Assembly: GCF_014636495.1 (NCBI RefSeq)
Contig: NZ_BMEM01000001.1
Coordinates: forward strand, 878,136 to 942,135
Source of the DNA: Ornithinimicrobium tianjinense
GTDB lineage: Bacteria > Actinomycetota > Actinomycetes > Actinomycetales > Dermatophilaceae
DNA: 64,000 nucleotides
Direction of reading: 5' to 3'
A program made the translations under genes and the position numbers. Below are positions 3,253 to 58,392 of the stretch, piece after piece; positions within the stretch are counted from its first letter, which is position 1, and each line of letters opens with the position of its first letter. The notes beneath the pieces were generated by a model that was not told the origin of the DNA, did no database searches, and saw nothing but the letters and a program-made list of their open reading frames with translations.

Positions 3253-4044
3253 ATGAATTCGTTGCGCTGGGCCTCGCCCGAGCACCACGAGTCCGTGGGC
3301 TCGACCAACGTCGAGGCGCTGGCCGGTCCGCGCCCCGGGCGCGTGGTCGTGGCCGACCACCAGTCCGCGGGCCAGGGCCGCCTCGGACGCACCTGGGAGT
3401 CCCCTCCCCGCACCGGTATGGCGATCAGCGCGGTGGTCCCCGCCCTCCCCTCCGCGACGCTCGGCTGGCTGCCCCTCGCGGCCGGTCTCGCGCTCGCGTT
3501 GGCGCTCGAGGAGAGCCGCTGGCCGGTGAGCGCCAGCCTGAAGTGGCCCAACGACGTCCTCGTCCCGCTGCGCGACGGGGGCTCGGCGGTGCTGGAGGCC
3601 GACGGAGTGCGCTGGGGGAAGGTGGCCGGCGTCCTGTGCCAGGTGGCGACGAACGGGTCGATCGTCGTCGGCACGGGCGTCAACGTCGACCACACCCCCG
3701 ACCAGCTCCCGGTCCCCACCGCCACCTCCTGGCGGCTCGCCCGGGCGCAGGGCACCCCGGCCCCCCTGCCGGCGGGCGCGCGGGAGGAGCTGCTCACGGC
3801 ATACCTCTCCCACCTCGCCGACGCCCACGGCCGGCTGGCCGAGGGCGAGGTGGCGGCGGTCCGCGGCGCCTATCTGCAGCGCTGCCTGACCCTCGGACGG
3901 CCGGTGCGCCTGCACCTGCCGACGGGCGGCACCCTCGAGGGCACGGCGGTGGACCTCGACGCCGACGGCGCTCTCGTGCTCGAGGACGCACGCGGGCGGA
4001 CCGTCCACCGCGCCGGTGACGTGGAGCACGTCCGGCACCAGTAG
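3253..4044 (+). CDS. birA: Biotin--[acetyl-CoA-carboxylase] ligase
   Basis: 263 residues. It makes biotinyl-AMP and attaches biotin to the carboxylase alpha subunit. GQGRLGRTW (residues 40-48) is the biotinyl-AMP-binding loop and KWPNDV (97-102) carries the catalytic Lys; GKVAGVL and GTGVNV follow, and the C-terminal SH3-like domain ends at GDVEHV. There is no N-terminal winged helix, so this is a monofunctional ligase, not a bio-operon repressor. The frame is open far upstream on this strand, but that is antisense to pccB; ATG 3253 is supported by the -10 box at 3240. Pairs functionally with pccB-accE next door. Confidence 0.93.
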
Positions 4045-4047
4045 CCT
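4042..4047 (+). promoter_or_regulatory. -10 box TAGCCT for the enoyl-CoA hydratase gene, containing the birA stop codon
   Basis: TAGCCT starts with the TAG stop codon of birA and ends 8 bases before the ATG at 4056. The next gene thus has its own leaderless promoter built on the previous stop. Confidence 0.55.
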
Positions 4048-4055
4048 GGCTCGTC

Positions 4056-4850
4056 ATGGACGCACCGACGATGCTGCAGCTCACCTGCCACGGCGACGCC
4101 GGCCACGTGGTGGAGGTCGCCCTCGACCGGCCCTCGGCGATGAACGCCATCAGCACCGCCTTCGCCGAGGAGATCACCGCCACCACCGCGCGGCTCGCGG
4201 CCGACCCCTCGGTCCGCGCCGTCGTCATCACGAGCACGCACGAGCGCGCCTTCTGCGTGGGCGCCGACCTCAAGGAGCGCAACGGCTTCACCGACGCGCA
4301 GATGATGGACCACCGGCTCGTGTCCAAGCTGGCCTACCGCGGCGTGCTCGACCTGCCCGTTCCCGCGGTCGCCGCGGTGGAGGGCTTCGCCCTCGGAGGA
4401 GGTATGGAGATCGCGCTCAGCTGCGACCTGATCGTCGCGGGGGAGGGGGCCACGGTGGCCCTGCCCGAGGTGGGCGTCGGCGTGATCCCCGGTGGTGGCG
4501 GCACCCAGCTGCTCACCCGGCGGGTCGGGTGGTCGCGGGCGGCGTCGATGATCTTCACCGCCCGCCGCCTGACGGCGGCCGAGGGCGGTGCGCTGGGGGT
4601 GCTCGACGAGGTGGTGCCCGCCGGGACGGCACGCGACCGCGCGCTGGAGATCGCCGCGCAGATCGCCGCGAACTCGCCGGTCGCCGTCCGCAACGCCAAG
4701 AAGGCGATGCGGCTGGGCATGGGCGCCGACCTCGCGGCCGGCCTGGAGATCGAGGACGGCTGCTGGCGGGCGACCGCCTTCAGCGGTGACCGCAAGGAGG
4801 GCGTGGCCGCGTTCGCGGAGAAGCGCACCCCGGAGTGGCCGGGCCACTGA
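4056..4850 (+). CDS. Enoyl-CoA hydratase/isomerase family protein
   Basis: 264 residues, standard crotonase length. It would hydrate trans-2-enoyl-CoA in fatty-acid or amino-acid breakdown. The fold signatures are present: FCVGADLKERN (oxyanion hole, about residues 66-76), ALGGGMEIALSCDL (first catalytic Glu region) and LPEVGVGVIPGGGGTQ (second catalytic Glu), so both acid residues appear to be retained. Downstream the two-component genes follow at 13 bases, so read-through is possible. Which acyl-CoA it uses is unknown. Confidence 0.9.
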   Translation: MDAPTMLQLTCHGDAGHVVEVALDRPSAMNAISTAFAEEITATTARLAADPSVRAVVITSTHERAFCVGADLKERNGFTDAQMMDHRLVSKLAYRGVLDLPVPAVAAVEGFALGGGMEIALSCDLIVAGEGATVALPEVGVGVIPGGGGTQLLTRRVGWSRAASMIFTARRLTAAEGGALGVLDEVVPAGTARDRALEIAAQIAANSPVAVRNAKKAMRLGMGADLAAGLEIEDGCWRATAFSGDRKEGVAAFAEKRTPEWPGH

Positions 4851-4863
4851 GAGGACGACCGAG

Positions 4864-7202: not shown

Positions 7203-8453
7203 GTGACATCTGCGCCCCAGCCCCCCACGCACCACCACCGTCCCCGCCGTGCCGAGGGCGGATTCCCCGTCGTCGGCATCGTCGGCGGCGGCCAGCTCGC
7301 CCGGATGTGCCAGCCTCCGGCCGTGGCCCTGTCGCTGACCGTCTCGGTGCTCGCCGAGTCGGAGTCGGCGAGCGCGGCCCTCGTGGTCCCGCACAGCCCG
7401 GTCGGCCACCACACCGACCTGGACGCGCTGCGGGCCTGGGCGCAGCACTGCGACGTCGTGACCTTCGACCACGAGCACGTGCCGCAGGAGGTGCTGGCGG
7501 CGCTCGCGGCGGACGGGGTCGAGCTGCACCCCAGCCCTGACGCCCTCGTCTACGCCCAGGACAAGCTCGCCATGCGCGAGCGGCTCACCGCGCTCGGCCT
7601 GCCCTGCCCGCGGTGGACCCGCGCCCGCACCGCCGAGGAGGTGGAGGCGTTCGCCGCCGAGGTCGGCTGGCCGTTGGTCGTCAAGGCCCCGCGCGGCGGC
7701 TACGACGGCAAGGGGGTCCAGGTATGCCGTGAGCCGGCCGAGGTGGAGCCGTGGCTCTCGGGCGTGGGCGAGGGTGGCCTGGCCGACGGGCTGCTCCTCG
7801 AGGAGGCCGTCGACTTCACCCGCGAGCTGTCGATCATGGTCGGCCGCAGCCCCTCCGGGCAGGCGGCGGCGTGGCCGGTGGTGGAGACCGTCCAGGAGGG
7901 CGGGATCAACACCGAGGTGCTGGCCCCCGCGCCCGGCCTCGACCCCGACCTGGCGACCTCGCTCACCGAGGGGGCGCTGCGGATCGCCGGCGAGCTCGGG
8001 GTGACGGGCGTGATGGCCGTCGAGGTCTTCGAGGTGACCCGGGTGGGCCCCGACGGGGGGACGCGCGCGGCATACCTCGTCAACGAGCTGGCCATGCGCC
8101 CGCACAACAGCGGGCACTGGACCATCGACGGCTCGGTGACCAGCCAGTTCGAGCAGCACCTGCGCGCTGTGCTCGACCTGCCGCTGGGCGACCCGTCGGC
8201 CCGCGATGCCTGGACCGCGTCGGCGAACGTGCTGGGCGGCGACTACGCCGAGCTGTACGGCACCTACAAGCACCTGATGGCCCGGGACCCTGGCCTGAAG
8301 ATCCACCTCTACGGCAAGGGCGTGCGCCCGGGCCGCAAGCTCGGCCACGTCACCGTCTACGGAGGGCGCAGCGGCGACCTGCATTCCCTGGAGGCGCTGC
8401 GCGAGCGCGCGCGGCACGCCGCCGACTACCTGCAAGGAGTGGTGACCGAATGA
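7203..8453 (+). CDS. purK: 5-(carboxyamino)imidazole ribonucleotide synthase
   Basis: 416 residues. ATP-grasp enzyme converting AIR plus bicarbonate to N5-CAIR in purine synthesis. [12 protein letters not shown] (about residues 24-35) is the N-terminal nucleotide-binding start, DKLAMRERL marks the second domain, and [16 protein letters not shown] near residue 160 is the grasp loop; [17 protein letters not shown] near 300 holds the metal and substrate contacts. The first 20 residues (His/Pro-rich) are not conserved. The stop overlaps the purE start by 4 bases (ATGA), so the two consecutive steps are translationally coupled. Confidence 0.96.
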
Positions 8454-9029: not shown

Positions 9030-10055
9030 ATGCGCTTCGGAATGTTCGTGCCCCAGGGCTGGCGGTTGGACCTCGTCGGCATCGCGCCCGAGAAGCACTG
9101 GGGCGTCATGCTCGACCTCGCCCAGCGCCTCGACGCCGAGGAGGCCTGGGAGTCGCTGTGGGTCTACGACCACTTCCACACCAGCCCCGGCCCCACGGAC
9201 GAGGCCACCCACGAGGCGTGGACGCTCATGGCGGCCTTCGCGGCCACGACGGGCCGGGTCCGGCTGGGCCAGATGTGCACGTGCATCAGCTACCGCGAGC
9301 CGACCTACCTCGCCAAGGTGGCGGCGACCGTCGACGTGATCTCCGGCGGCCGGGTCGAGATGGGCATCGGCGCCGGGTGGTACGAGCACGAGTGGCGCGC
9401 CTACGGCTACGGCTTCCCGACTGCGGGGGAGCGGCTGGCCCGGCTCCGCGAGGGGGTCGACATCTTCCGGCAGATGTGGACCACCGGCAGCGCCACCCTG
9501 GAGGGCGAGCACTACCGGGTCGACGGCGCCCTGTGCCACCCCCGGCCACTGCAGGGCACGGCGTTCCCGGGGAGCGAGCGCAACGGCATACCGGTCTGGG
9601 TCGCCGGCGGCGGCGAGCGCAAGACGCTGCGGATCGCGGCGGAGTATGCCGACTGCACCAACTTCGACGGCACGCCGGACGTCTTCTCGCACAAGTCGCA
9701 GGTGCTGGCCGGGCATTGCGCGGACCTGGGACGCGACCCCGCCTCGATCACCCGGTCCGCCAACTACAACGTGGTCATCGGTCGGGACGAGGCGGAGGTG
9801 GAGGACCGGCTGGCCCTCGTCAAGGACCTCCATGTCCGGGGCGGCATCGCCGAGGAGCGTGCGGAGGCCGCCGTGCGCAACCTCCGCACCCAGCCTGCCG
9901 TCGGGACGCCCGAGCAGATCGTGGATATGCTCAGGGACATGGAGGGGCGCGGTATGACGTACGCGATCACCTATTTCGCCGAGGCGGCCTACGACACGTC
10001 CGGCATCGAGCTGTTCGAGGACGAGGTCATGCCGGAGCTCGCCGGCCAGGGCTGA
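9030..10055 (+). CDS. LLM-class F420-dependent oxidoreductase (TIGR03560-like)
   Basis: 341 residues. TIM-barrel luciferase-like monooxygenase fold; the opening MRFGMFVPQGW, ESLWVYDHFHT, RVRLGQMCTC and GGRVEMGIGAGWYEHEW follow the F420-binding subgroup. It would transfer hydride with reduced coenzyme F420 to an unknown substrate. Consistent with this the cell carries cofD and cofE about 17 kb away in the same window. No operon partner; a strong hairpin follows. Start moved from GTG 9024 to ATG 9030 because of the -10 box spacing. Confidence 0.88.
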   Translation: MRFGMFVPQGWRLDLVGIAPEKHWGVMLDLAQRLDAEEAWESLWVYDHFHTSPGPTDEATHEAWTLMAAFAATTGRVRLGQMCTCISYREPTYLAKVAATVDVISGGRVEMGIGAGWYEHEWRAYGYGFPTAGERLARLREGVDIFRQMWTTGSATLEGEHYRVDGALCHPRPLQGTAFPGSERNGIPVWVAGGGERKTLRIAAEYADCTNFDGTPDVFSHKSQVLAGHCADLGRDPASITRSANYNVVIGRDEAEVEDRLALVKDLHVRGGIAEERAEAAVRNLRTQPAVGTPEQIVDMLRDMEGRGMTYAITYFAEAAYDTSGIELFEDEVMPELAGQG

Positions 10056-10751: not shown

Positions 10752-13700
10752 TCAGCAGGTGGGCCGCACCGGCTCACCGGGCAGGATGAGCGCGGACTCC
10801 TCCGGCGTGAGGTCGGTGTTGGCCACCCGGCACGCCGCCTCGACCCACGCGGCCGGGTCGGTGCCGATGGCCGCGTCCGGACCGAGCTCGCCGTAGATCC
10901 GCAGCTGCCTCTCGTCGAAGGCCAGGAACCCCCAGCCGAGGCCGTCCACCACGGGCTTGCCGTAGGGGCGCCAGGTGGTGGCGTCGAGGAGGGTGACGTC
11001 GCCGTCGCTGCCCATCACCGCGATCGTCGAACCATCGGGGGACCGCTGGAGGTCCACCACGTAGCCGGCGGTCACCAGGCGGTCAGGGGCGACTCGGCGC
11101 AGGGTGCCGGCGTCGAGGAAGTGCAGCCGGCCGGAGAGCGAGCCGACCACCAGGGTCTGTCCGTCGGCGCTGTAGAGCGCACGGGACAGGGCCATCGTGC
11201 CGGGCAGGTCGAGCGACGCCGACGCGGCACCGTCCTCGCCGGACAGCACGACCACCGACGTCCCACGGAGCACCGCCATCCGGCTGTCGTCGTCAGCAGC
11301 GGCCGCGAGCGTGCCGACGGGGCTGGGCTCGCCCGGTCGGTCCGGGTCCTGGTGGCTCCACAGCTCCTGGCCGCTCGAGACCTCGTAGAGCGCCCACCCA
11401 CCGCTGCCGTTGACGAGGACGCGCGTGCCGTCCGCCGTGAGCGCCAGACCGACCGGCGCCCACGGGGTGGCGATCGTCCGCTCCACCTCACCCGACTCGA
11501 CGTCCCAGACAGCGACGCGACCCCGGTCGGTGACCGGAGCGAAGTCCTCGAGGTCGTGCCACTCCTCGATGGTGGCGAGCGCCCGTCGCCCGTCGGGGGT
11601 GATGGCCAGGGCAGGCCCGACCTGACAGAAGCAGTCGTAGGGCTGCAGCTCGCCGTGGAGGTCCTGGCCGGTGGCCAGGTTCACGAACCGGGCGCCGTTG
11701 GGCGCGTCGTCGTGCGGGACCCGCACGACGGCCCGAGCCGCCCGCGGCGCTGCCGCACCCAGCTCGAGCTGCAGCTCCGTCTTCTCCCGGCGCAGCAGCC
11801 CCCGGGAGCGCGAGAGGTCGAGGGCGACCGTCGTGCCGTCGCGCCCCGCGGTCCAGAGGAGGTCACGGTCGGTGCCCGCCAGGACGGTGCCGAGCACAGC
11901 GCCGTTGTGCACGGGCCAGCTCGTGATCAGGTCGAAGGTCGTCGGGTCGCGCAGCTCAACCCGTTCGTCGACGGCCACGGCGAGGCTGTCACCGTCGGGA
12001 GCGAGCTGCGCAGAGCGGACGAATCCGGAGATGGTGCCGGTGCCACCCTGCGGCTCCCAGGAGCGGGGGTCGCGCAGGTGCACGATGGACACCTCCCCGC
12101 CCTCGGTGACAGGGTTCGTGCTCGTCACGACCTGGCTCCCGTCGGGGCTGACCCCCACCACCATCCCGGGCAGGTCGCTCCGGACCCGACCTGTGTCGAG
12201 GTCGAGCGTCGACGAGGTTCGGCCCTCCTCCATCTCTGCCACCAGGACCCCACCGGGAAGGGTCCAGTGCCAGCCGCTGCGGCCCTCCCAGGCCGTCCGG
12301 GACAGCACCTCACCCGAGTCCGGGTCGACGACGAACGCGGAGGACCGCGTGGTGAGCACCGGCCGGCCCTCGTGCAGACCCGCGGAGCGGTCCACGAAGA
12401 CCTCCTCCCCGGGGTGGGCCTCGTGCAGGTCGGCGACGGTCACCTGGGCCCGGAGCTGCCCGGTCCCGGCGTCGAGCACCTGCAGCACCGCCTGGTCCGG
12501 AGGGGCGTCGGGCCCGGCGAGCAGCGGGACCGCGACCCAGTCGGACCCGGGGGCGGAGACGGGGCGGCCCCACTGCCCACCGGTGGGGGAGGCGGTCTGC
12601 CAGCGCAGCGTCCCGTCCTCGGCGTCGAGCGCGTACACCTGGTCGATGTTGTCCGAGAGCACCACCACGCGGCCGTCCAGAGCGGTGCCCACCTCGAGGA
12701 AGCGGTCCTCGATGCGGTAGCGGGTCACCACGTCCGGCTGGCGCGTGAGCAGCGTGAGGAGGGCGCCGTAGGTCTCGGGACTCTGCTCGCGGCGCACCGC
12801 CTCGACGGCCTCCAGGAGGGCGACGGCGGGCCGGTCCTCGTTGAGGGCCACCGCGGCCAGCCGTCGGGCGTCCGCCGACACCGCCGAGTCCCGGGCCCGG
12901 ACGGCTGAGGCCTCGGCCTCCCCACGGGCGCGCACGGTCAGGACGCCCGCCACGAGCGCCGCGACGAGCAGCAGGACCGTGGCCATCAGCGCCCACCGCA
13001 GCCGCCGGTTCTGCCGGGCCGTGGCCGCCGCCCGGGCCCGGGCCTCGTCCTCCCTGGCCCGCACGCGCGCGAGGCCGGCGTCCAGGAAGTCCCGCTCCAC
13101 CGGGGTGACCTCGTCCGGGCGCGCCGCCGCCAGGTCGACCGCGGCGGACAGCCTGACGCCGCCCCACAGCGCGCTGTCGTCGCGCCCCTCCGCCTGCCAC
13201 TCTGCAGCGGCCGCTGCGAGCCTGCGCAGCACGTCGTGCCCGGCGGTGTCCTCGCTCAACCAGTCACGCAGGCGCGGCCACTCCCGGAAGAGCGACTCGT
13301 GCGCCACCTCGACGTGGGCGTCCGACACGGTCACGAGGCGCGCGTCGGCCAGCGCCTCCAGGACGCGGCGGGTGCCGGGCAGAGACAGCGCCTCGACCTC
13401 GGTCAGCGGCACCCGGCGCCGCACCACGCCCTGCCCCTCCCCGCGGCCGGCCAGCCGCAGCAGGAGCACACGGGCGGTGTGCCGGTCCTCGGAGGCCAGC
13501 CCACGCCATACCTGCTCGGCGAGCGTGCTGATCGCCCCGGTGATCCCGCCGGCCCGGACGTAGCCGGAGTAACTGAGGCGCCCACCGTCGCGGTCCTGCC
13601 AGAGCTGGGTGAGCGCGACGGACAGGAGCGGGAGCGACCCGGGCTCGTCCCCGGCGGCCTCGACGATCGTCTGCGCCAGGCCGTCCTCCAGGACCAGGCC

Positions 13701-15746
13701 GGCCCGCGCCGCAGGACGGGTGACGGCGCGCTCGATCTCGGCGGGAGAGGGAGAGCCGACCAGCACCGTGCCGTCGGAGAGCAGACGGGCGAGGGCGGGG
13801 TGCTGGGCCACCGCGGAGACGAAGTCCGCCCGGAGCGCGACGACCACCGTCGTCGAGGTGGTGCCCGACGTCGCGAGGTCGACGAGGGTGTCCAGGAACG
13901 CGACTCGCTCACCCGGGTCGTCGCAGGCGGTCCAGACCTCTTCGAGCTGGTCCACCGCCAGGAGGGTGCGCGGAGCGCCGTCCTCGTCCCGGACGAGGTG
14001 CGCGAGGAGCTCACCGAGGTCGGACGTGGGTGAGCCCAGGGCGACGCGCGCGAGCTCGCGCAGGGGGTGGCGGCCAGGCCGCATGAGGACCCGGCGCCAG
14101 CCGGCGGAGCCGGGCAGGACGTCGCTGGCGACGGAGGCCAGGACCCCGGCCCTCAGAGCCGAGGACTTGCCGCTTCCCGAGGCGCCCACGAGCGCCAGGA
14201 GACGGGTGCTCGTCAGCCGTGCGAGCACCTCCGCGACCAGGTGCTCGCGTCCCGAGAACCACTCGGCGTCCTCTACGTCGTAGGCGACCAGCCCGCGCCA
14301 CGGGCACCTGTCGTCCGTGTCACCGGTGGCGCGGACGGGCTGCTGTCCCAGCGTCTGGATGCTGTCCGCCACCTCGGCCCGGGCCCGGCTGAGGGCCGCG
14401 CTCGAGCGGCCGGCCGTGTCCACGGCCACGACGAGCTGCCTCGAGGCCAGCGCTCGGGCCAGCCGGGCGGCCTCGTCGTGGACCCGTCCCGGCCACGCCG
14501 GACCGCCGGCGAGGATCTCCTCGGCGACCTCCTCCACGGCTGACGGCGGGACGTAGTCGGCGACGATCTCGCGCACCTGCTCCGGTCCGAGCGGGGACAG
14601 GTCCACCACGGGGACGCCGGGGGGCGGCACCGATCCGGGGCCGGTGAGGAGCAGCAGCATCCCTCGGGAGGTCGCAGGCTCGGGGGACGCGCCGTCCACG
14701 ACCCGCAGCCACCGGCCGGAGCCCGGCGCCGACGCCTCCCCACCCAGCAGCACCACGGCCCCGTCCCGGTCAGCCTCCTCGGCCAGCGCCGCGGCCAGGC
14801 GGGTGGCCCCCGCACCGGCGGGGCCGCGCACGAGGACCGTCACCGCGGCCCCGGCGAGGGACCGGGCCCAGGCGTCGCGCAGCACCTGGAGCTCCTCCCC
14901 GCGCCCGACCATGCGGCCGTGCGCGCGGAGCGGCTCGGGCACCCCGTGCCGCCGGTCCGCCAGGTCCAGGCCCGGGTCCTGGGCGAGGATCCGGGCCTGC
15001 ATCTCCCGCAGGCCGGCCCCCGGGTCGACCCCGAGCTCCTCGGCCAGGTGCGCGCGTGCACGGTCGTAGGTCTCCAGCGCCTGCGCCTGGCGGCCGCCCC
15101 GGTAGTGCGCAAGCATGAGCAGCTCCCACAGCCGCTCCCGCAGCGGGTGCTCCTGCGTGAGCCGCTCGAGCTCGGGCACCGCCGCGGCCGACCGGTCGAG
15201 CGCCAGGAGCGCCTCGGCCCGCACCTCGAGCAGGCCCTGCCGGAGCTCGCCGAGCCGGCGTGCCTCGGCCCGACCGAAGTCCGTGTCCTCCTGACCGGCG
15301 TAGGGCTGGCCGCGCCACAGGGCCAGCGCGTCCCGGGCCGCGTCGAGCGCGGCCTGGGGACGTCCCTCCGCCAGGGCCTGCCGCGCCAGCTCGGCCAGCG
15401 AGGTGAACCGGTCGGCGTCGACGGCCGCGCGGTCCACGGCGAGCAGGTAGCCCCGTCCGCTCGTGAGGATGAGTCGCGGTGTGCCGTCGCGGTCCGGCTC
15501 GAGGGCGTTGCGGAGCCGGAGCACGTAGTTCTGCAGGGTCTTCGCGGCGCTCGGCGGCGGGTCGTCCTCCCACAGCGACTCGATGAGGTCCGTCGCGGGG
15601 ACCACCTGGCCGGCGTAGGCCACGAGATGAGCGAGAACGGTGGACTCCTTGGCCCCCCGGATGTCGACGCGCACCCCGTCGCGATGCACCTCGAGCGGTC
15701 CGAGGACCCCGATCTCCATGGCGGAACGATAGTGCGGGGCAGGCAT
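10752..15746 (-). CDS. SARP-type transcriptional regulator with degenerate P-loop, nSTAND-like NTPase, one TM helix and beta-propeller
   Basis: 1,664 residues. Order of parts: winged-helix DNA-binding domain (about 10-100, starting MEIGVLGPLEV), BTAD domain (about 107-260), a P-loop-like segment VRGPAGAGATRLAAAL (about 303-318) that lacks the Walker lysine, then CPWRGLVAYDVEDAEWFSGRE and an intact Walker A (LVGASGSGKSSALRAG, about 515-530) of the nSTAND1 type, with LLAVDQLEEVW as Walker B. A single hydrophobic helix (914-937) follows, flanked by Arg-rich residues inside. The remaining 700 residues hold repeated SPDG/TPDG/TADG turns of a WD40/PQQ-like propeller. ATG 15746 is preferred over the conserved-looking ATG at 15719 because AAGGA lies 8 bases upstream. 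SARP proteins activate nearby genes; the membrane segment would place the propeller outside the cell (inference). Confidence 0.88.
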   Translation of the reverse strand: MPAPHYRSAMEIGVLGPLEVHRDGVRVDIRGAKESTVLAHLVAYAGQVVPATDLIESLWEDDPPPSAAKTLQNYVLRLRNALEPDRDGTPRLILTSGRGYLLAVDRAAVDADRFTSLAELARQALAEGRPQAALDAARDALALWRGQPYAGQEDTDFGRAEARRLGELRQGLLEVRAEALLALDRSAAAVPELERLTQEHPLRERLWELLMLAHYRGGRQAQALETYDRARAHLAEELGVDPGAGLREMQARILAQDPGLDLADRRHGVPEPLRAHGRMVGRGEELQVLRDAWARSLAGAAVTVLVRGPAGAGATRLAAALAEEADRDGAVVLLGGEASAPGSGRWLRVVDGASPEPATSRGMLLLLTGPGSVPPPGVPVVDLSPLGPEQVREIVADYVPPSAVEEVAEEILAGGPAWPGRVHDEAARLARALASRQLVVAVDTAGRSSAALSRARAEVADSIQTLGQQPVRATGDTDDRCPWRGLVAYDVEDAEWFSGREHLVAEVLARLTSTRLLALVGASGSGKSSALRAGVLASVASDVLPGSAGWRRVLMRPGRHPLRELARVALGSPTSDLGELLAHLVRDEDGAPRTLLAVDQLEEVWTACDDPGERVAFLDTLVDLATSGTTSTTVVVALRADFVSAVAQHPALARLLSDGTVLVGSPSPAEIERAVTRPAARAGLVLEDGLAQTIVEAAGDEPGSLPLLSVALTQLWQDRDGGRLSYSGYVRAGGITGAISTLAEQVWRGLASEDRHTARVLLLRLAGRGEGQGVVRRRVPLTEVEALSLPGTRRVLEALADARLVTVSDAHVEVAHESLFREWPRLRDWLSEDTAGHDVLRRLAAAAAEWQAEGRDDSALWGGVRLSAAVDLAAARPDEVTPVERDFLDAGLARVRAREDEARARAAATARQNRRLRWALMATVLLLVAALVAGVLTVRARGEAEASAVRARDSAVSADARRLAAVALNEDRPAVALLEAVEAVRREQSPETYGALLTLLTRQPDVVTRYRIEDRFLEVGTALDGRVVVLSDNIDQVYALDAEDGTLRWQTASPTGGQWGRPVSAPGSDWVAVPLLAGPDAPPDQAVLQVLDAGTGQLRAQVTVADLHEAHPGEEVFVDRSAGLHEGRPVLTTRSSAFVVDPDSGEVLSRTAWEGRSGWHWTLPGGVLVAEMEEGRTSSTLDLDTGRVRSDLPGMVVGVSPDGSQVVTSTNPVTEGGEVSIVHLRDPRSWEPQGGTGTISGFVRSAQLAPDGDSLAVAVDERVELRDPTTFDLITSWPVHNGAVLGTVLAGTDRDLLWTAGRDGTTVALDLSRSRGLLRREKTELQLELGAAAPRAARAVVRVPHDDAPNGARFVNLATGQDLHGELQPYDCFCQVGPALAITPDGRRALATIEEWHDLEDFAPVTDRGRVAVWDVESGEVERTIATPWAPVGLALTADGTRVLVNGSGGWALYEVSSGQELWSHQDPDRPGEPSPVGTLAAAADDDSRMAVLRGTSVVVLSGEDGAASASLDLPGTMALSRALYSADGQTLVVGSLSGRLHFLDAGTLRRVAPDRLVTAGYVVDLQRSPDGSTIAVMGSDGDVTLLDATTWRPYGKPVVDGLGWGFLAFDERQLRIYGELGPDAAIGTDPAAWVEAACRVANTDLTPEESALILPGEPVRPTC

Positions 15747-17919: not shown

Positions 17920-18980
17920 GCGAGCCCCGCTGGCAGGCCCTCGCCGAGCAGGCCACCCGTCTCGAGCGGGACGAGGGCTTCTCCGGCATCCTCCGGGTCG
18001 CCCGCGGCGAGGAGGTGCTGCACGAGTCGTGCCACGGCCTCGCGAACCGGGCCGACGGCATACCCGTCCATCCCGGGACGCGGTTCGCGACCGCCTCGCT
18101 CAGCAAGATGTTCACCGCCGTGGCCGTGCTCGACGCCGCCGGGCGGGGTGAGGTGGGCCTGACCGACCGGGTCGTCGACGTGCTCCCGCCCCACCGCCGT
18201 CCGGTCACGCTCCGCGAGGATGTCACCGTCGAGCACCTGCTCCTGCACACCTCGGGCATCGCGGACTACGCCGAGGAGGACGAGGACCTGCCGGGCTACG
18301 TCGCGGACTACGGGTCGATCTGGGCCGACCTGCCCGTCTACCGGGTCCGCGACGGCCTCGACGTGCTGCCCCTCTTCGCCGACCTCCCGCCGGTGTGCCC
18401 GCCAGGCACGGCCTACCACTACAGCAACGCCGGCTACGTCCTGCTGGGGATCGTGCTCACCGAGGTCTGCGGCCTGCCGTTCGCCGAGGCGGTCACCAGC
18501 CGCGTGCTCCGACCGGCGGGCATGACGGGCAGCGGCTACCTCGCGATGAACGAGGTGCACCCGGACGTCGCGACGGGCTACCTGCCGCCCCTGCTGCCCG
18601 GGGGCCCGGCCCGCACCAACATCTACTCCGTCCCGGCCCTCGGGATCGGGGACGGAGGAGCGTTCGTCACCGCGGGGGACGTCGCCCGGTTCTTCGCCGC
18701 GCTCGCCCAGGCATGGGTATGGCGCGGGGTCACCCCCGAGCTCGCGCTCACCCCTCGCGCGCCCGGGTGGCCCGGGTTCGGCACGAGCTACGTCGTGGTG
18801 GTGCGCGACGACGGCGTGGTCGGCAAGGCGGGCGGAGATCCCGGGGTGGCGACGATCGGACGCTTCCGGCCCTCCGACGGCACCACCGCGGTGCTGCTCG
18901 CCAACGTGGGCTGGGAGGACGTGCCCGGGCTGGGCGACCTCGTGGACGCGATGGACGCGGCGGCCTTCGCGGCCGGGTGA
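17916..18980 (+). CDS. Serine hydrolase, beta-lactamase/penicillin-binding-protein-like (class C fold)
   Basis: 354 residues with no signal peptide, so probably cytosolic. SLSK (about residue 62) is the SxxK nucleophile motif, YSN in YHYSNAGY (about 168-170) is the second catalytic motif, and HTSG near 110 is typical of the family; a clear KTG-type third motif is not obvious, KAGG near 307 being the best match. Such proteins hydrolyse esters, amides or D-amino-acid peptides; the substrate is unknown. Translationally coupled to the PEP-mutase-like gene. Convergent with the kinase gene, 14 bases away. Confidence 0.85.
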   Translation: MSEPRWQALAEQATRLERDEGFSGILRVARGEEVLHESCHGLANRADGIPVHPGTRFATASLSKMFTAVAVLDAAGRGEVGLTDRVVDVLPPHRRPVTLREDVTVEHLLLHTSGIADYAEEDEDLPGYVADYGSIWADLPVYRVRDGLDVLPLFADLPPVCPPGTAYHYSNAGYVLLGIVLTEVCGLPFAEAVTSRVLRPAGMTGSGYLAMNEVHPDVATGYLPPLLPGGPARTNIYSVPALGIGDGGAFVTAGDVARFFAALAQAWVWRGVTPELALTPRAPGWPGFGTSYVVVVRDDGVVGKAGGDPGVATIGRFRPSDGTTAVLLANVGWEDVPGLGDLVDAMDAAAFAAG

Positions 18981-20763: not shown

Positions 20764-20772
20764 GGTATGCCG
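20764..20772 (+). other. Intergenic copy of the recurrent nonamer GGTATGCCG
   Basis: One of only two perfect copies found outside genes (the other is at 35709). It lies between the kinase start and the LCP gene end. See the finding on this motif. Confidence 0.8.
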
Positions 20773-23648: not shown

Positions 23649-24323
23649 TCAGCCCTCGACGGGGGAGACCGGCTCGGGCGTCGGCTCGTCGACCGCCACC
23701 GTGAGGGGGGCGCCGGTCTTTTCGACGACCTCCTCGACGGTGACGCCCGGGGCGACCTCGCGGAGCACGAGTCCCTCGGGGGTGACGTCGATGACGGCCA
23801 GGTCGGTGATGATGCGCTGGACCACCTTCAGGCCGGTGATCGGCAGGTCGCACTCCTCGACGATCTTGTAGCTGCCGTCCTTGGCGACGTGGTCCATGAG
23901 GACGACGACCTTCTTGGCGCCCATGACCAGGTCCATCGCGCCGCCCATGCCCTTGACCATCTTGCCCGGGATCATCCAGTTGGCGATGTCGCCGGCCTGG
24001 GAGACCTGCATCGCGCCGAGGATCGCGGCGTCCACCTTGCCGCCGCGGATCATCCCGAAGCTGGTGGCGGAGTCGAAGAAGCTGGCGCCGGGACGCGTGG
24101 TCACGGTCTCCTTGCCGGCGTTGATGAGGTCGGCCTCCTCCTCCCCGTCGTAGGGGTAGGGGCCCACGCCGAGGATGCCGTTCTCGGACTGCAGGACCAG
24201 CTCGACGTCGTCGGGCACGTAGTTGGGGACGAGCGTCGGCATACCGATGCCGAGGTTGACGTAGTCGCCGTCCTTGAGCTCCGCGGCGGCGCGGGCCGCC
24301 ATCTCCTCACGGGTCAGCGCCAT
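23649..24323 (-). CDS. scoB: 3-oxoacid CoA-transferase subunit B
   Basis: 224 residues. Beta subunit carrying the catalytic glutamate E47 in [10 protein letters not shown], which forms the Glu-CoA thioester; [11 protein letters not shown] and [15 protein letters not shown] are the other family signatures. With ScoA it transfers CoA from succinyl-CoA to acetoacetate (or an adipate analogue). The C-terminal 15 residues are Pro/Glu-rich. ATG lies one base after the scoA stop, so the subunits are made together. Confidence 0.93.
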
Positions 24324-35708: not shown

Positions 35709-35717
35709 GGTATGCCG
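35709..35717 (+). other. Intergenic copy of the recurrent nonamer GGTATGCCG
   Basis: Perfect copy in the 30-base gap between two minus-strand genes. See the finding on this motif. Confidence 0.8.
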
Positions 35718-42958: not shown

Positions 42959-44464
42959 GTGACGGACAGCACGCACTACGACCTGATCATCCTCGGCTCC
43001 GGCTCGGGCAACTCCCTGGTCACCAGCGAGATGGAGTCGCGACGCACGGCGGTCGTGGACCGTGGCGTCGGGAGCGAGGGTGCCTTCGGCGGCACCTGCC
43101 TCAACGTCGGCTGCATCCCGACCAAGATGTTCGTGTATGCCGCGGAGGTCGCCTCGACGGTCCGCGACGCCGCCCGCTTCGGCGTCGACGCCACCCTGGA
43201 CGGGGTGCGGTGGCGCGATATCCGCGACCGGGTGTTCGGCCGCATCGACCCGATCAGCGAGGGCGGGCGCGACTACCGCCGCGACGCGGACCACACCGAC
43301 CTCTACCTCGGGCACGGGCGGTTCGTCGGTGACCGCGAGGTGGAGGTCGTCATCACCCGGCCCGGCGGGCGGCACGAGGTCGGGACCCGCCACCGGATCA
43401 CGGCGGACCAGGTGGTCGTCGCGACCGGGGCGCGGCCGCGGGTCCCGCAGGTGGTCCTGGACGCGGGGGTGCCCTTCCACACCTCCGACAGCGTGATGCG
43501 CATCGACGAGCTGCCGGCCAGCATGGTCGTCGTGGGGGGAGGTGTCGTCGCGGCGGAGTTCGCCCATGTCTTCTCCTCCCTCGGCGTGCGGGTGTCGGTC
43601 GTGACGCGCTCGAGCCGGATGCTCCGGGGCGTCGACGAGGAGATCTCGCAGGCGTTCACCGACCTCGCCCGGCAGGCGTGGCACCTGCACACCGACGCCC
43701 GCCCCACGGCGGTGCGCGCCGGCGGCGAGGGCGTCGAGCTGGACCTGGCGGACGGCGCGACGGTCACCGGAGAGCTCCTGCTGGTGGCCACCGGTCGCAC
43801 CCCCAACAGTGACGACCTCGGGCTGGAGCGCACCGCGGTCCGCACCCACGACGACGGCCGGGTCGCCGTCGACGAGCACGGCCGCACCGACGCGGCGGGC
43901 GTCTGGGCGCTCGGCGACGTCAGCTCGACCTACCAGCTCAAGCACGTCGCCAACCACGAGGCGCGCGTCGTGGCCCACAACCTGGTGCACCCCCAGGACC
44001 TGCGCACCGTCGACCACCGCTACGTGCCGGCCGCCGTCTTCACCCATCCCCAGGTGGCCACGGTCGGGCTGAGCGAGGCGGGGGCGCGCGAGGCGGGGTA
44101 TGACGTGACCGTCAAGGTCCAGCGCTACGGCGACATCGCGTACGGCTGGGCGATGGAGGACACCACCGGCCTGTTCAAGCTGGTCGGCGACCGCCGCACC
44201 GGCCGCCTGCTCGGTGCCCACGCGATGGGTCCGCACGCCTCCAGCCTCATCCAGCCGGTCATCCAGGCCCTGAGCCTGGCCGGCCCGGAGGGCGGACCGA
44301 CCGCGGAGCAGCTGGCGCGGGGGCAGTACTGGATCCACCCGGCGCTCTCGGAGGTCCTAGAGAACGCCCTGCTCGGCCTGGACGTCCAGCCCTTCCACGA
44401 CGCGACCGCGGAGTACGACCCGGCCGGCGAGCACGAGGGGGGCACACCGCTGGACGTAGCATGA
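42959..44464 (+). CDS. mtr: Mycothione reductase
   Basis: 501 residues. NADPH flavoenzyme that keeps mycothiol reduced. Redox pair C47/C52 in [17 protein letters not shown] start [17 protein letters not shown]-binding [16 protein letters not shown] near 185, and the C-terminal [13 protein letters not shown] holding the catalytic His. Closest to the mycothiol-specific branch of glutathione-reductase-like enzymes. The ATGA overlap with a possible ahcY start suggests partial coupling. Confidence 0.95.
44457..44462 (+). promoter_or_regulatory. -10 box TAGCAT for ahcY
   Basis: TAGCAT lies 7 bases before the ATG at 44470 and within the end of mtr. This favours 44470 over 44461 as start. Weaker than the other boxes because the sequence is also coding. 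Confidence 0.4.
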
Positions 44465-50203: not shown

Positions 50204-50971
50204 ATGACGTGGCGCCCCGGGGAGGACCTGCTCGCCCTCCTCGACCTGGCGGCGCCCGCCGCGTGCGGAGGATGCTCGCGGGCCGGCACCCGGTGGTGCT
50301 CGGACTGCGCGGCGTCGCTGCGCGACGGAGCGGCCGGAGCCGGCCCCTGGTCGCCCACGCCCCGGCCGGCCGGTCTGCCGCCGACCTGGTCCGGAGCGGC
50401 CTACGCGGGCGCGGTCCGGGCGGGGGTCGTCGCCTGGAAGGACGGCGGCCGCGCCGACCTCACCGCGGTCCTGGCCCCGGTGCTGCGCGCCGTGCTCGCG
50501 GCCGCCCTCGACGGGTCGGTCCACCACGCCGAGGCGCTCGCGGCCGGTGACGCCGTGCTGCTGCTTCCCGCACCCTCCGGACGGGCGGGCACCCGCGCCC
50601 GCGGGGAGCACCGCGTCGCCGCCCTGACCAGGGCGGCGGTGCGCGGCATACCCCGCAGCGAGGGACCGCGGCCCCTGGAGGTGCTGGACGCGCTGTGTCT
50701 GGTCAGGCGGGTGCAGGACCAGGCAGGGCTGGACGCCCGGGCCCGTGCCGCCAACCTCGCCGGCGCGGTCAGGGTCCGGCCCGTCCTCGCGGGGCGGATC
50801 GTCGGGAGGCCGTGCATCGTGGTCGACGACGTGGTGACCACGGGCGCGACCCTCGCCGAGTGCGCCCGCGCGCTGCGCGAGTGCGGTGCGGGGCCGGTCG
50901 CGGCAGCCACGCTGGCGGCCACCCGTCGGCGTCCGCGAGCCGGTCTACCGGAAGCGGCGCGGGCGGACTAG
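50204..50971 (+). CDS. comF: ComF-family phosphoribosyltransferase-like protein
   Basis: 255 residues. N-terminal zinc knuckle AACGGCSRAGTRWCSDC (about residues 18-34) and C-terminal PRTase loop IVVDDVVTTGATLAEC (about 206-221). Members help DNA uptake or are housekeeping PRTase-like proteins; no competence genes are near. The ATG is immediately preceded by GGAGGT, closer than usual for a ribosome site. It lies between lpqB and hpf as in other actinobacteria. Confidence 0.9.
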   Translation: MTWRPGEDLLALLDLAAPAACGGCSRAGTRWCSDCAASLRDGAAGAGPWSPTPRPAGLPPTWSGAAYAGAVRAGVVAWKDGGRADLTAVLAPVLRAVLAAALDGSVHHAEALAAGDAVLLLPAPSGRAGTRARGEHRVAALTRAAVRGIPRSEGPRPLEVLDALCLVRRVQDQAGLDARARAANLAGAVRVRPVLAGRIVGRPCIVVDDVVTTGATLAECARALRECGAGPVAAATLAATRRRPRAGLPEAARAD

Positions 50972-51880: not shown

Positions 51881-53098
51881 ATGACCGTCCTGCGGACCCT
51901 CACCCTCGACCAGGCCCGGCGGACCGCCCTCGCGGCGCAGGGTTTCGCTGACCGTCGGCCCGCGCCGGGTGGGGCCACGATGCGGCACGTCGCCCGGGTG
52001 GTCGACCGGGTGCAGGTCGTCCAGGTCGACAGCGTCAACGTGCTCACGCGCAGCCAGTACCTCCCGTTCTTCTCCCGGCTGGGTCCCTACGGCACCGACC
52101 TGCTCGACCGGGCCCGCGACGGGGCCGGGCCGCGGGCGCGCACCGGTCGCCGCCTGGTCGAGTACTGGGCGCACGAGGCCTCCCTGGTGCCGCCGTCCGT
52201 GTGGCCGCTGCTCACCTTCCGGATGGACGCGGCGCGCGAGCGCGCCTGGAGCCGTGGCGTCACCGTCGAGCACGCCGAGCTGCTTGATGCCGTGCGCAGG
52301 GTCGTGGCGGAGCACGGACCGCTGACCAACCGCGAGGTGGAGGCGCACCTGCCCCACGGAGCGGAGCGCGGGCGGGAGAACTGGGGGTGGAACTGGTCGG
52401 CGGTCAAGAGCTGCCTCGAGTACCTCTTCTGGGCGGGGGAGATCACCTCGGCCGGGCGGACGACCTCCTTCGAGCGCAGGTATGCCGTGCCCGAGGCGGT
52501 CCTTCCGCCGGAGGTGGTCGCCGCACGGAACGCGGCCAGAGGCGCAGACCCGCAGGCGGCCGTCACCGAGCTCCTCCGACTGGCGCTCGTCGCCCACGGT
52601 CTGGGCACCCAGCGGTGCCTGGCCGACTACTTCCGCGTCCGGGGACCGCGGGTCGCGGCGGGGCTGGCCGAGCTCGAACGCCGCGGGCTGGCCGAGAGGG
52701 TGCGGGTGGCCGGGTGGGACCGCCCCCTGTGGCGCGACCCCGGGGCCCGCAGCCCCCGGCACGTGCCCGGTGCCGCACTGCTCAGCCCGTTCGACTCGCT
52801 CGTCTGGCAGCGGGAGCGGACCGAGGCGCTGTGGGGGATGCGCTACCGGCTCGAGATCTACGTGCCGGCCCCGCAGCGCGTGCACGGCTACTACGTCCTG
52901 CCCTTCCTCCTCGACGAGCGGCTCGTGGCGCGGGTGGATCTCAAGTCCGACCGGGCAGCGGGCGTGCTCAGGGCGCTGTCGGTGCACTGGGAGCCCGGCG
53001 CAGACGTGGCCCGCGGCGCCCCGGCCCTGCAGACCGAGCTGGAGTCGATGGCCGGCTGGCTCGGGCTCGGTCGCGTCGACCTCGCCCCGCCACGCTGA
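51881..53098 (+). CDS. Winged-helix DNA glycosylase, AlkZ/YcaQ-like (HTH_42)
   Basis: 405 residues. AlkZ-type proteins unhook interstrand crosslinks and alkylated bases. VQVVQVDSVNVL (about residues 45-56) carries the QxD catalytic motif, WAHEASLVP and WNWSAVKSCLEYLFWAGEI are typical, and the C-terminal third holds HVPGAALLSPFDSLVWQRERT. ATG follows AGGATG at leaderless-like distance. Convergent with the GNAT gene, 3 bases apart. Confidence 0.85.
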   Translation: MTVLRTLTLDQARRTALAAQGFADRRPAPGGATMRHVARVVDRVQVVQVDSVNVLTRSQYLPFFSRLGPYGTDLLDRARDGAGPRARTGRRLVEYWAHEASLVPPSVWPLLTFRMDAARERAWSRGVTVEHAELLDAVRRVVAEHGPLTNREVEAHLPHGAERGRENWGWNWSAVKSCLEYLFWAGEITSAGRTTSFERRYAVPEAVLPPEVVAARNAARGADPQAAVTELLRLALVAHGLGTQRCLADYFRVRGPRVAAGLAELERRGLAERVRVAGWDRPLWRDPGARSPRHVPGAALLSPFDSLVWQRERTEALWGMRYRLEIYVPAPQRVHGYYVLPFLLDERLVARVDLKSDRAAGVLRALSVHWEPGADVARGAPALQTELESMAGWLGLGRVDLAPPR

Positions 53099-53101: not shown

Positions 53102-54262
53102 TCAGAGCGGGGTGATCTCCCCGGCGAGCAGGTCGAAGCGCACCATGTCCTCCACGGTGCCGTCGCCCAGCCGCTCCGCGCGGCGGTCACGGCCCGTCTG
53201 GGTCATCCCGACGGCAAGGGCCACCTTGCGGCTCGGTGCGTTGCTCTCCGCGGCGCGGAGCAGGAGTCGGTCCAGACCGAGCCCGCCCGCGGTCAGCGAC
53301 GTCAGGGCGTAGCGGCAGGCGCTCTGCACCGCGACGGTCAGCAGCCCCCGTCCCCGGACCTGCGGGTGCGCCAGGTAGCCGACCTCCGCCTGGCCCGGCT
53401 GCGTGCCCAGCCCGAAGAGCGCCACCGACCCGACGCAGACGTCGGCGCCGGTCTCGGTGACGCACCAGGCCAGCTCGGTGCCGCGCGCGGCGCTGTCCCG
53501 GACGCGGTCGACGTAGGCCATCGCCTCGCCGATGCCGTAGGGCCGCGGAAGCGCGGGCAGGTATCTCTGGGACACCGGGTCCTGGCAGGCTTCGACGATC
53601 CGGCCCGCGTCCGTGTGGCGCCAGGGCCGCAGCACCACGCCGCCGGCCTCGAGGGTCGGCACCACGAGCCAGGGGTATGCCGGGGTCCGCGCCTCGTCGT
53701 GGCGCAGGCTGGCCACCCAGCCGTCCCTGGGTCGCCGCTCCTGGCCGTGGCCGGGCAGCAGGCCGCGCACGGTCAGGGGCGCGCTGAACCCGAGCCGCCA
53801 GGCGACGCGGCGCGAGGCCCAGTTGCCCACCTCCGCCCGCCAGCGGGCGGTGTCGACGTCGTCCTGGGTGAAGGCGTGCTCCAGGGCCAGGTCGAGGGCG
53901 CGCACGGCGACGCGGTTGTCCCGGAAGGCGGGGTGGACGGCATACCCGACCTCGGCCGCGCCGTGCCCGTCGGGGCGGTACTCGACCGTCCCGGCCGCGC
54001 GCCATACCCCCTCACGCAGCACCTCGACGACCCACTGCCGGGGGGAGTAGGGCAGACGCTCGGACCATCGCTCGGCCGCCACGGCCGTCCAGCTCCGCGC
54101 CTGCGTGGGCGCGCCGGTGGGGGAGGCGTCCCCCCAGCGCAGGCACTCCTCGTCCCGCCCCAGCTCCACGAGCATCTGCTCGTGCGCCGGTGCCGGGGCG
54201 ACCAGCCTGAGATCACCCGACACGAGCCGGGGAGCGGCCGTCGGTGCGGCGTGCGCGGACAT
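53102..54262 (-). CDS. Double-domain GNAT acetyltransferase
   Basis: 386 residues with two GNAT folds in tandem: first about 15-165 (GTVEYRPDGHGAAEVGYAVHPAFRDN, residues 95-120), second about 200-385 (GSVALFGLGTQPGQAEVGYL then HPQVRGRGLLTVAVQSACRYAL, with the RGRGL acetyl-CoA loop). The first copy has a weaker CoA loop (FRDNRVAVRAL), so only the second may be active. Substrate unknown; RimJ/RimL-type. The start is ATG 54262, although the frame stays open antisense to secA; a TAGGCT box overlapping the secA box lies 7 bases upstream. Confidence 0.88.
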   Translation of the reverse strand: MSAHAAPTAAPRLVSGDLRLVAPAPAHEQMLVELGRDEECLRWGDASPTGAPTQARSWTAVAAERWSERLPYSPRQWVVEVLREGVWRAAGTVEYRPDGHGAAEVGYAVHPAFRDNRVAVRALDLALEHAFTQDDVDTARWRAEVGNWASRRVAWRLGFSAPLTVRGLLPGHGQERRPRDGWVASLRHDEARTPAYPWLVVPTLEAGGVVLRPWRHTDAGRIVEACQDPVSQRYLPALPRPYGIGEAMAYVDRVRDSAARGTELAWCVTETGADVCVGSVALFGLGTQPGQAEVGYLAHPQVRGRGLLTVAVQSACRYALTSLTAGGLGLDRLLLRAAESNAPSRKVALAVGMTQTGRDRRAERLGDGTVEDMVRFDLLAGEITPL

Positions 54263-54280: not shown

Positions 54281-56971
<2,691 letters not shown>

Positions 56972-56982
56972 GACGTGCCAGA

Positions 56983-57018
56983 GCCTCGGGGCCGCCCGGC
57001 CGTGGGCGGCCCCGAGGC
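56983..57018. terminator. Strong bidirectional hairpin after secA
   Basis: Perfect 15-bp stem GCCTCGGGGCCGCCC / GGGCGGCCCCGAGGC with a 6-base loop between secA (+) and the Rv3235-like gene (-), whose stop codon begins two bases later. Confidence 0.85.
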
Positions 57019-57019
57019 G

Positions 57020-57541
57020 CTAGCCGAGCTCCCAGGCCGTGATGAGCCACCGACCGTCGGTGCCGCACATGCGCAACGCCAGGGCCCGGACGCGGCCGTC
57101 CGCCCAGACGACGGCGGACACCTCGCAGACCCCTTCGGCAGGCAGACAGGTGAGGATGGTCTTCACCACGGGCGGTCGGTGCGCGCGCCTGCCCCTGCGT
57201 CTGGCCAGCTGACCCCGGCGTCGGATCCGCTCCTTGATCTCAGGTGTGACCCAGCGGCCGAGCTGGTCGGCGGGTCGGGTCCCGTCGGAGGCCTCGAGCA
57301 CGACCTGGATCATGCCGCGCGCCCACGCGCCAGGCTCCGGGAGCTGGACCGTCGGCGTGGCCTGCGGGCCGAAGAAGCTGTCGTCCCCGGCCCCCCTGAA
57401 GTCGACCGCCAGGCTGCCCTGGACGTAGCGCTGCGCGGGCGTCCGCGCCGTGGTCTCGCCCCAGTCAGGCCCAGCGCTCTCCGGTTCGCAGCGGGGCGCG
57501 GGCAGGAGCCGGAGCACCTCCGGAGCGGCGGCGGCGCTCAC
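57020..57541 (-). CDS. Rv3235 family protein
   Basis: 173 residues. RPADQLGRWVTPEIKERI (about residues 85-102) and the C-terminal VRALALRMCGTDGRWLITAWELG match the actinobacterial Rv3235 family, a small cytosolic protein of unknown role found next to secA. The middle is Arg-rich (RRRGQLARRRGRRAH). GTG start overlaps the LysM-gene stop by 4 bases (GTGA), so the pair is translationally coupled. Confidence 0.85.
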   Translation of the reverse strand: MSAAAAPEVLRLLPAPRCEPESAGPDWGETTARTPAQRYVQGSLAVDFRGAGDDSFFGPQATPTVQLPEPGAWARGMIQVVLEASDGTRPADQLGRWVTPEIKERIRRRGQLARRRGRRAHRPPVVKTILTCLPAEGVCEVSAVVWADGRVRALALRMCGTDGRWLITAWELG

Positions 57542-58392
57542 CGGTGCGCCTCCGGAGCCGGCGCCACGAGCTGCTGACCCGGCCGGAGCAGGTGCGGGTC
57601 GTCGCCGATGACGTCGCGGTTGGCGGCATACCAGAGCGGCCACTGCTCGGCGACGTCCTGGTCGGTGGCCTGCTGCCCGAGGTGACGCGCGGTGATGTCC
57701 CAGAGGGTGTCTCCGCGGTGCACCACGACATGGTCGAGGGGCTCCTCTCCGTGCGTGGTCGCGCTGACCAGACCCACGTCGGAGGACGGCCTCGGTGCCG
57801 TCGGCACGGGTGTGGGCGTCCAACCTGGCCGGGGCAGGGTGCTCCCGATGCCCTCAGCGGCGTCGGAGGTCGCTTCGGCCGTGGTCCCGGCGGCAGTCGC
57901 TGTGACCTCGGTCGCCGTGATGTCCATCGCGTCGACCTCGGTCGCCGTGGTTTCCGTCGCCTCGACCTCGATCGCGACGACGGTCTCCGTGGCACCCGCG
58001 ACGACGGGCGCCGCCAGGAGGGCGCCGACCGTGAGCAGGCCGGTCGCGACCTGGCGCACCACCGGCGACGGACCTCGTCGGGTGGTCCTCCCCGTGGTCG
58101 GTGCGGCGACGACCGAGTCACCTCCGAGCAGAGCCTGGTCGGTCAGCAGGCACAGCACGGCCCTGGTCAGCAGCACCGCGACCCAGCCGCTGGAGATCGC
58201 AGCGGCCCCCGTGGTGAGGAAGCCCAGGCCGTCGGCGACCTGGGCCACCTGCCAGCCCGGCCACTGTCCGATCGCCCACCTCGTCAGCACCACGGCGAGG
58301 GCTCCAGCGCCCAGCGAGCCCACGCCGCCCAGCACCAGGGCGGCGCGCGCCCCGCTGCGGGACCGGCGCGCGTCCATGTCGTCCTCCGTCAT
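57538..58392 (-). CDS. Membrane-anchored LysM domain protein
   Basis: 284 residues. Three hydrophobic segments near the N-terminus (about 15-40, 50-75, 108-130), then a Thr/Glu/Ala-rich linker (135-180) and one LysM domain near the C-terminus (VVHRGDTLWDITARHLG, residues 222-238, ending LRPGQQLV). It probably binds peptidoglycan from the membrane. ATG 58392 has GGAGG five bases upstream; an upstream in-frame ATG at 58410 is less likely. Coupled to the Rv3235-like gene. Confidence 0.85.
   Translation of the reverse strand: MTEDDMDARRSRSGARAALVLGGVGSLGAGALAVVLTRWAIGQWPGWQVAQVADGLGFLTTGAAAISSGWVAVLLTRAVLCLLTDQALLGGDSVVAAPTTGRTTRRGPSPVVRQVATGLLTVGALLAAPVVAGATETVVAIEVEATETTATEVDAMDITATEVTATAAGTTAEATSDAAEGIGSTLPRPGWTPTPVPTAPRPSSDVGLVSATTHGEEPLDHVVVHRGDTLWDITARHLGQQATDQDVAEQWPLWYAANRDVIGDDPHLLRPGQQLVAPAPEAHR

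Follow-up and report, generated by a model that had tools for sequence, protein, structure and literature searches.

Nonamer sites in the analysed stretch

The 64,000-bp stretch of Ornithinimicrobium tianjinense DNA analysed here (the window; contig 1, positions 878,136 to 942,135, of the 3.31-Mb genome referred to as G000) carries a recurrent nonamer, GGTATGCCG, which is the commonest form of an 8-base motif that we interpret as a probable DNA uptake sequence. An exhaustive search returned 23 copies of the nonamer, 10 on the plus strand and 13 as CGGCATACC; each of the 23 positions given in a preliminary description of the window was exact, and no more copies were present. The nonamer ranks fourth by frequency among the 9-mers of the window, both strands counted. 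Four further sites, which the nonamer misses, carry GTATGCCG without the leading G, and the window total for the more general form GTATGNCG is 44, including 17 sites in which N is not C. The sites are:

7721..7729, plus strand, exact GGTATGCCG
20764..20772, plus strand, exact GGTATGCCG
22947..22955, plus strand, exact GGTATGCCG
26081..26089, plus strand, exact GGTATGCCG
31157..31165, plus strand, exact GGTATGCCG
31679..31687, plus strand, exact GGTATGCCG
35709..35717, plus strand, exact GGTATGCCG
37714..37722, plus strand, exact GGTATGCCG
52479..52487, plus strand, exact GGTATGCCG
53674..53682, plus strand, exact GGTATGCCG
3797..3805, minus strand, exact GGTATGCCG
8068..8076, minus strand, exact GGTATGCCG
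9584..9592, minus strand, exact GGTATGCCG
18056..18064, minus strand, exact GGTATGCCG
24237..24245, minus strand, exact GGTATGCCG
24727..24735, minus strand, exact GGTATGCCG
27094..27102, minus strand, exact GGTATGCCG
37153..37161, minus strand, exact GGTATGCCG
39687..39695, minus strand, exact GGTATGCCG
42261..42269, minus strand, exact GGTATGCCG
50644..50652, minus strand, exact GGTATGCCG
53938..53946, minus strand, exact GGTATGCCG
57624..57632, minus strand, exact GGTATGCCG
9644..9651, plus strand, exact GTATGCCG without leading G
39123..39130, plus strand, exact GTATGCCG without leading G
43135..43142, plus strand, exact GTATGCCG without leading G
62159..62166, minus strand, exact GTATGCCG without leading G

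Selection on the DNA word and definition of its core

The whole G000 genome holds 625 forward and 633 reverse copies of GGTATGCCG (1258), versus 4 and 1 (5) of the reversed word. Within genes, 127 copies were seen, a sixteen-fold excess over the mean of 7.9 (maximum 15) obtained in 50 within-gene shuffles of synonymous codons. This comparison was made on 313 open reading frames (ORFs) covering 366 kb of the window and of 400 kb of the same chromosome (14% of the genome), with the ORFs called heuristically by an ad hoc rule on the G+C content at third codon positions and no gene finder. The excess therefore indicates that the DNA word itself is favoured, in agreement with the preliminary description, which had placed selection on DNA and not on protein and had named counts near a codon-shuffle expectation as the outcome that would speak against it; in our near-equivalent run on 14% of the genome the nonamer survived, and codon or peptide usage is ruled out as its cause. 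Sites located within called ORFs (17 of 23 in the window, 112 of 156 in the 400 kb) occupy all three phases and both orientations, as had also been claimed, and of 129 in-gene sites, 64 share the strand of their gene, i.e. no gene-strand bias is present.

The nonamer, first taken as the motif, is a real word, but the motif differs slightly from it: the core is the 8-base GTATGNCG. GTATG is found within GTATGNCG in 44 of 49 cases in the window and in 606 of 718 cases in 759 kb of G000, corresponding to a density of 0.8 GTATGNCG per kb. For the same 759 kb, an order-2 Markov model predicts 246 GTATG and 12 GTATGCCG, compared with the 718 and 391 that were found. In G000 only the sixth base of GTATGCCG varies freely, being A in 71, C in 391, G in 88 and T in 56 sites; the seventh base displays a weak excess of A, and single changes at most other core positions are at or below expectation, making near misses rare. 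The motif prefers C at N, G before the core and T or C after it, and the word built from 179 sites reads GGTATGCCG followed by T or C. The flanks are unconserved beyond one or two bases, which rules out repeats or mobile elements as the source of the word.

In a second genome, G133, the sixth base is nearly fixed (C in 274 of 283 sites, against 391 of 606 in G000). Among the 20-kb samples counted, it is relaxed in G062, G064 and G086 and mostly C in G155, G190, G166, G141, G096, G105, G133 and G198. This strict or relaxed use of N by genus, around a constant GTATG.CG core, resembles dialects.

Two further enriched words were observed in the window and the first 400 kb of contig 1 of G000, AACGCCTGTCCG with 21 copies and the palindrome ACTCACGTGAGT with 8 (both-strand count), and these look like dispersed repeats.

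Orientation and strand-wise spacing

Over 400 kb the two orientations are balanced (79:77), and no 20-kb stretch stands out (chi-square 11.1 on 20 degrees of freedom), which supports the earlier view that the word is not a polar signal of the FtsK or Chi type; the balance rules out FtsK-orienting sequences (KOPS) and other polar signals, for which strong polarity would be expected. Large-scale clustering is likewise absent, with a mean of 3.9 and a variance of 4.1 sites per 10 kb. The spacing had been described as irregular, and this stands for the pooled sites (coefficient of variation (CV) of the gaps 1.03) but not for sites on the same strand, which are more even than random (CV 0.74 to 0.83).

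Adjacent GTATGNCG sites tend to be inverted (394 inverted versus 199 same-strand neighbours in G000, 184 versus 98 in G133), because same-strand pairs are depleted below 1.5 kb. At such distances, same-strand pairs reach 0.58 of expectation in G000 (220 versus 376.6; p ~1e-18) and 0.64 in G133 (96 versus 149.9; p ~2e-6), p-values that presume a uniform Poisson background; past 1.5 kb the ratio climbs to 1.0. Opposite-strand pairs show no avoidance (1.12 and 1.14 of expectation, respectively). None of the control 8-mers of similar frequency (0 of 590 in G000, 0 of 92 in G133) was as low in its same-strand or same-to-opposite ratio, and the genera of G000 and G133 are located on opposite sides of a tree of the pilus ATPase TadA (see below). 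When small stretches from other motif-rich genomes were pooled, with some genes represented more than once, inverted neighbours numbered 71 and same-strand neighbours 16 at 130 to 600 bp. Within about 1.5 kb, a second site is therefore redundant if it has the same orientation but not if it has the opposite one; reading of the signal is apparently strand-specific.

Head-to-head and tail-to-tail pairs differ only at distances under about 150 bp, at which tail-to-tail pairs forming GC-rich hairpins are in excess (pairs closer than 60 bp: 5 versus 2.8 expected in G000, 11 versus 2.4 in G133). The pooled small loci of the other motif-rich genomes displayed no such excess of close inverted pairs below 130 bp (12 inverted versus 8 same-strand). 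In 400 kb of contig C1 of G133, from position 1,000,001 (L241 to L260), tail-to-tail pairs extend into GC-rich stems, perfectly paired over as many as 18 bp, which are probable terminators.

Distribution in the family and beyond

GTATGCCG was counted in 186 genomes from 53 genera of one actinobacterial family, that of G000, and the 163 genomes that are at least 90% complete were classified as motif-rich (at least 400 copies), intermediate (150 to 370) or motif-poor (the rest, near background). This gave 92 motif-rich genomes with 400 to 4700 copies, 11 intermediate and 60 motif-poor ones. Nothing comparable was found in 233 genomes of other families: 138 genomes from the order held at most 167 copies, with the reversed control equally high in that case and the best genome at three times its control (G045, 88 versus 29), and 97 genomes from the phylum, overlapping the former sample by two, held at most 386 copies, in 7.5 Mb and 2.2 times control.

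Single motif-poor species occur within genera: G022, with 50 copies, among 31 of genus g1; G140, with 19 copies, among three of g58, the others having 1062 and 3681; and G065, with 37 copies in a genome 89% complete, among five of g30. In a midpoint-rooted tree, without outgroup, of 27 TadA proteins encoded by one gene (that of the tad-1 locus) and picked to contrast the classes, presence and absence are interleaved, with motif-rich genomes on both sides of the root and eight changes, at least six of them across well supported branches, no fewer than with shuffled labels. This interleaving therefore makes the word look old and repeatedly lost, and we infer that it is ancestral to the family, repeated gain of the same word being less likely.

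Competence machinery

ComEC is present in 180 of the 186 family genomes, and being near-universal it was rejected as the gene deciding motif presence. In G000, comEA (HHH_3 and SLBB domains) adjoins comEC. The tad-1 locus of this genome encodes TadA, TadB, TadC, a Flp-like small protein and two TadE-like minor pilins (TadE and TadF); a second Tad locus, common to motif-rich and motif-poor genomes, encodes TadZ, TadA, a Flp-like pilin and a TadE-like pilin, and a third encodes a Flp pilin. The best match to T2SSE in G000 spans positions 4 to 286 of 370, like TadA, and full-length PilB-like matches were found in other families and in G035. ComP_DUS (PF16732) had no match in G000, a search in which the control genomes gave none either. 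With the 9-mer, the surroundings of the tad-3 locus seemed depleted of the motif, but no such gap remained when GTATGNCG was used.

Four small tad-1 genes were found in all 19 motif-rich loci examined and in 7 of 10 motif-poor ones. A profile search for the tad-1 TadE found one copy in 165 of the 186 genomes. Among motif-rich genomes 2 of 92 lack it, compared with 11 of 60 among motif-poor ones (Fisher p 0.0007, kinship ignored), a correlation that supports a link to competence; in the intermediate class 1 of 11 lacks it. Interrupted operons, which were looked for in about 30 genomes, are left out of this test. Two motif-rich genomes of genus g55, G129 and G130, with about 2540 GTATGCCG each, gave no tad-1 TadE match and are candidates for a very recent loss of competence.

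The motif-poor G140 (the sole motif-poor species of the three of g58 searched) and G206 have a split tad-1 operon, with TadE about 39 and 13 kb from TadA, and the tad-1 tadA gene is split by 13.2 kb in G064 and by 8.6 kb in G198 (L187, L188). By analogy, competence genes may serve here as landing sites for mobile elements, reminiscent of the comK prophages.

Foreign DNA and conservation of sites

Foreign DNA is poorer in sites, as would be the case for any self label, in three cases. The 13.2-kb element of G064, with genes that we read as transposase-like, has no GTATGNCG where about 10 are expected (15 in another 20 kb); the 8.6-kb element of G198, with a gene read as serine-recombinase-like, has one (7 in another 20 kb); and in a 20-kb stretch of G000 that carries both a phage integrase and a type ISP restriction enzyme, 5 sites occur versus about 16 expected. 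The last stretch includes, at about 49 to 58 kb of contig 2 (L192:9192-17691), an element of lower GC content and fewer sites that combines the integrase with the restriction enzyme, a protein of 1714 amino acids.

Among 13 congeners, with up to 40 kb aligned for each and pairs that are non-independent, sites were retained in 122 of 192 cases at 80 to 85% identity, compared with 38% for composition-matched 8-mers, and in 37 of 53 cases at 85 to 90% identity, compared with 53%; at 70 to 80% identity, retention is little above controls. The sites show both turnover and maintenance.

A putative DNA uptake sequence

We consider it probable, on the genomic evidence assembled above, that GTATGNCG is a DNA uptake sequence, i.e. 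a mark of self DNA shared across the family and recognised in natural transformation. The fit lies in the density, the balance of orientations, the genic location, the hairpin pairs, the dialect-like variation, the family distribution with its losses and the Tad and Com machinery: like uptake sequences, GTATGNCG is a non-palindromic word of the 8 to 12 bp kind present in hundreds to thousands of copies, in equal orientation, with genic sites and close inverted pairs, in bacteria with competence machinery. The preliminary description had proposed a nucleoid protein, a modification or mismatch-repair bias, or nuclease protection; the uptake sequence, which is the best anatomical fit, was absent from that list.

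Under the uptake interpretation, duplex DNA would make contact with a competence pilus of the Tad/Flp type, encoded by tad-1 and tad-3, or with a protein attached to that pilus; a reader would recognise GTATGNCG in one orientation, and ComEA and ComEC would pass one strand. Recombination would then spread the site: fragments bearing the word would enter and be integrated more often than others (molecular drive), and the value of importing DNA from kin would add to its accumulation. The mutual exclusion over about 1.5 kb, confined to copies on the same strand, suggests that the two orientations would act on different strands of the incoming DNA, or on DNA entering in different directions, and that each reaches about 1 to 1.5 kb; we favour a label that is recognised in one orientation, on the entering strand.

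Uptake sequences have been published for two bacterial families (PMC12616744), the unrelated Neisseriaceae and Pasteurellaceae. The DNA uptake sequences (DUS) of the Neisseriaceae, as covered in excerpts of PMC3630211, are likewise short non-palindromic words at about 1 per kb, family-wide, and have an invariant core with genus or clade dialects, which the variation at N resembles; they differ in that the word is unrelated, and that we are dealing here with a monoderm actinobacterium, apparently Tad-type and not type IVa pili, repeated outright losses and strand-wise exclusion of sites. The uptake signal sequences (USS) of the Pasteurellaceae share a similar density, the 1:1 orientation, the lack of a chromosome-wide bias, the many genic sites and the inverted hairpin pairs (excerpts of PMC1939737 and PMC7811141), some USS of Haemophilus influenzae occurring as inverted pairs (PMC7811141, same excerpts), but they consist of the 9-bp AAGTGCGGT or ACAAGCGGT (PMC12616744) instead of GTATGNCG. 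Flp/Tad-based transformation is described for Micrococcus luteus, which also has comEA-comEC and two tad loci, one with TadE/TadF-like minor pilins, and which needs both tad clusters, tadB excepted, together with comEA/comEC (excerpts of PMC4322843). The terms "uptake sequence" and "sequence specific" are absent from the text of PMC4322843, and "uptake sequence" from that of PMC8467076.

Several observations weigh against the uptake interpretation. The machinery alone does not predict the motif, as 49 of the 60 motif-poor genomes keep TadE and most keep comEC; these genomes either take up DNA without a label or the reader is another gene. Motif-rich genomes without tad-1 TadE (G129 and G130) or with an interrupted tadA (G064 and G198) must be read as recent losses if the word is an uptake sequence. 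No residue separated the classes in alignments of the four tad-1 pilins from 19 motif-rich and 7 motif-poor genomes, and no gene specific to motif-rich genomes was found beside comEC in 14 neighbourhoods (11 motif-rich, 3 motif-poor). The tad-1 pilins are thus insufficient as the sole determinant, given that their loci occur in motif-poor genomes and lack a separating residue. At 90 to 95% identity, site retention is barely above controls (48 of 70 versus 65%). Strand-wise spacing, finally, is not a known property of uptake sequences, those of H. influenzae having no effect of orientation on fragment uptake in the excerpted text of PMC1939737.

The strand-wise spacing is also what keeps the main remaining rival alive, a Chi-like recombination hotspot that would regulate a helicase-nuclease (RecBCD or AdnAB) in one orientation and be enriched for the protection or repair of self DNA. 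Like Chi, GTATGNCG is short, non-palindromic and dense, and the exclusion over about 1.5 kb fits the reading of one strand by a travelling enzyme; G000 has RecC, and a Chi-like site acting with AdnAB would predict a similar strand rule. Known Chi sites, however, are polar, and GTATGNCG shows no strand polarity in any 20-kb stretch of the 400 kb. It is, moreover, independent of the presence of RecC, which is found in 13 of the 25 motif-rich genomes compared and in 15 of the 25 motif-poor ones, hence absent from 12 of the motif-rich set, and this distribution rules out Chi acting through RecBCD. Repeated near-total loss between congeners (G022, G065 and G140) would also be odd for a housekeeping nuclease, so that we regard a Chi-like role as unlikely.

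Less likely still is that the word is the target of a DNA modification or of a self-marking defence that destroys DNA lacking the mark, or that it is enriched through a repair bias like that of HIP1. Its sharp bounds, with near misses rare at most positions, and the paucity of sites in foreign elements (0 versus about 10 in G064, 5 versus about 16 in G000) would suit such a role, but closely related species differ in having the word, which, unlike HIP1 of cyanobacteria, is not palindromic, and avoidance restricted to the same strand would be left unexplained. A binding site for a nucleoid or chromosome-segregation protein accords with genic and intergenic sites throughout the genome and is nevertheless very improbable in view of the lack of polarity and large-scale clustering, the repeated loss in the family and the strand-wise spacing.

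Returning to the uptake sequence, we advance more tentatively, as a proposal somewhat less likely than not, that it represents a third independent origin of self-DNA labelling, with no precedent beyond the Proteobacteria or among single-membrane bacteria. The label would be ancestral to the family and often lost, with strand-wise reading by a Tad pilus and ComEC and with each strand evenly labelled every 2 to 3 kb or so. Our literature search, with most subscription journals and preprints outside it, returned no report of this uptake sequence among the matches listed. If true, a third case in the Actinobacteria would offer dozens of genera keeping or losing the label for comparative tests of mate recognition versus molecular drive, would make natural competence and its species limits predictable across a large group that transforms poorly, and would provide a short tag with which transformation of its members might be achieved. 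How a label is read can be approached quantitatively through the strand-wise spacing, which is obtained from sequence alone and can be searched for in Neisseria and Haemophilus genomes.

Other observations

The window encodes, at 10752..15746 on the minus strand, a protein of 1664 amino acids with an AfsR/SARP-like N-terminal region, an unusually long size for this family of regulators. In addition, a record titled Acidobacteria bacterium isolate ATN4 (L049) contains an MtrB that is 73% identical to that of the window, the next best match being at about 46%, and probably represents a mislabelled actinobacterial relative.

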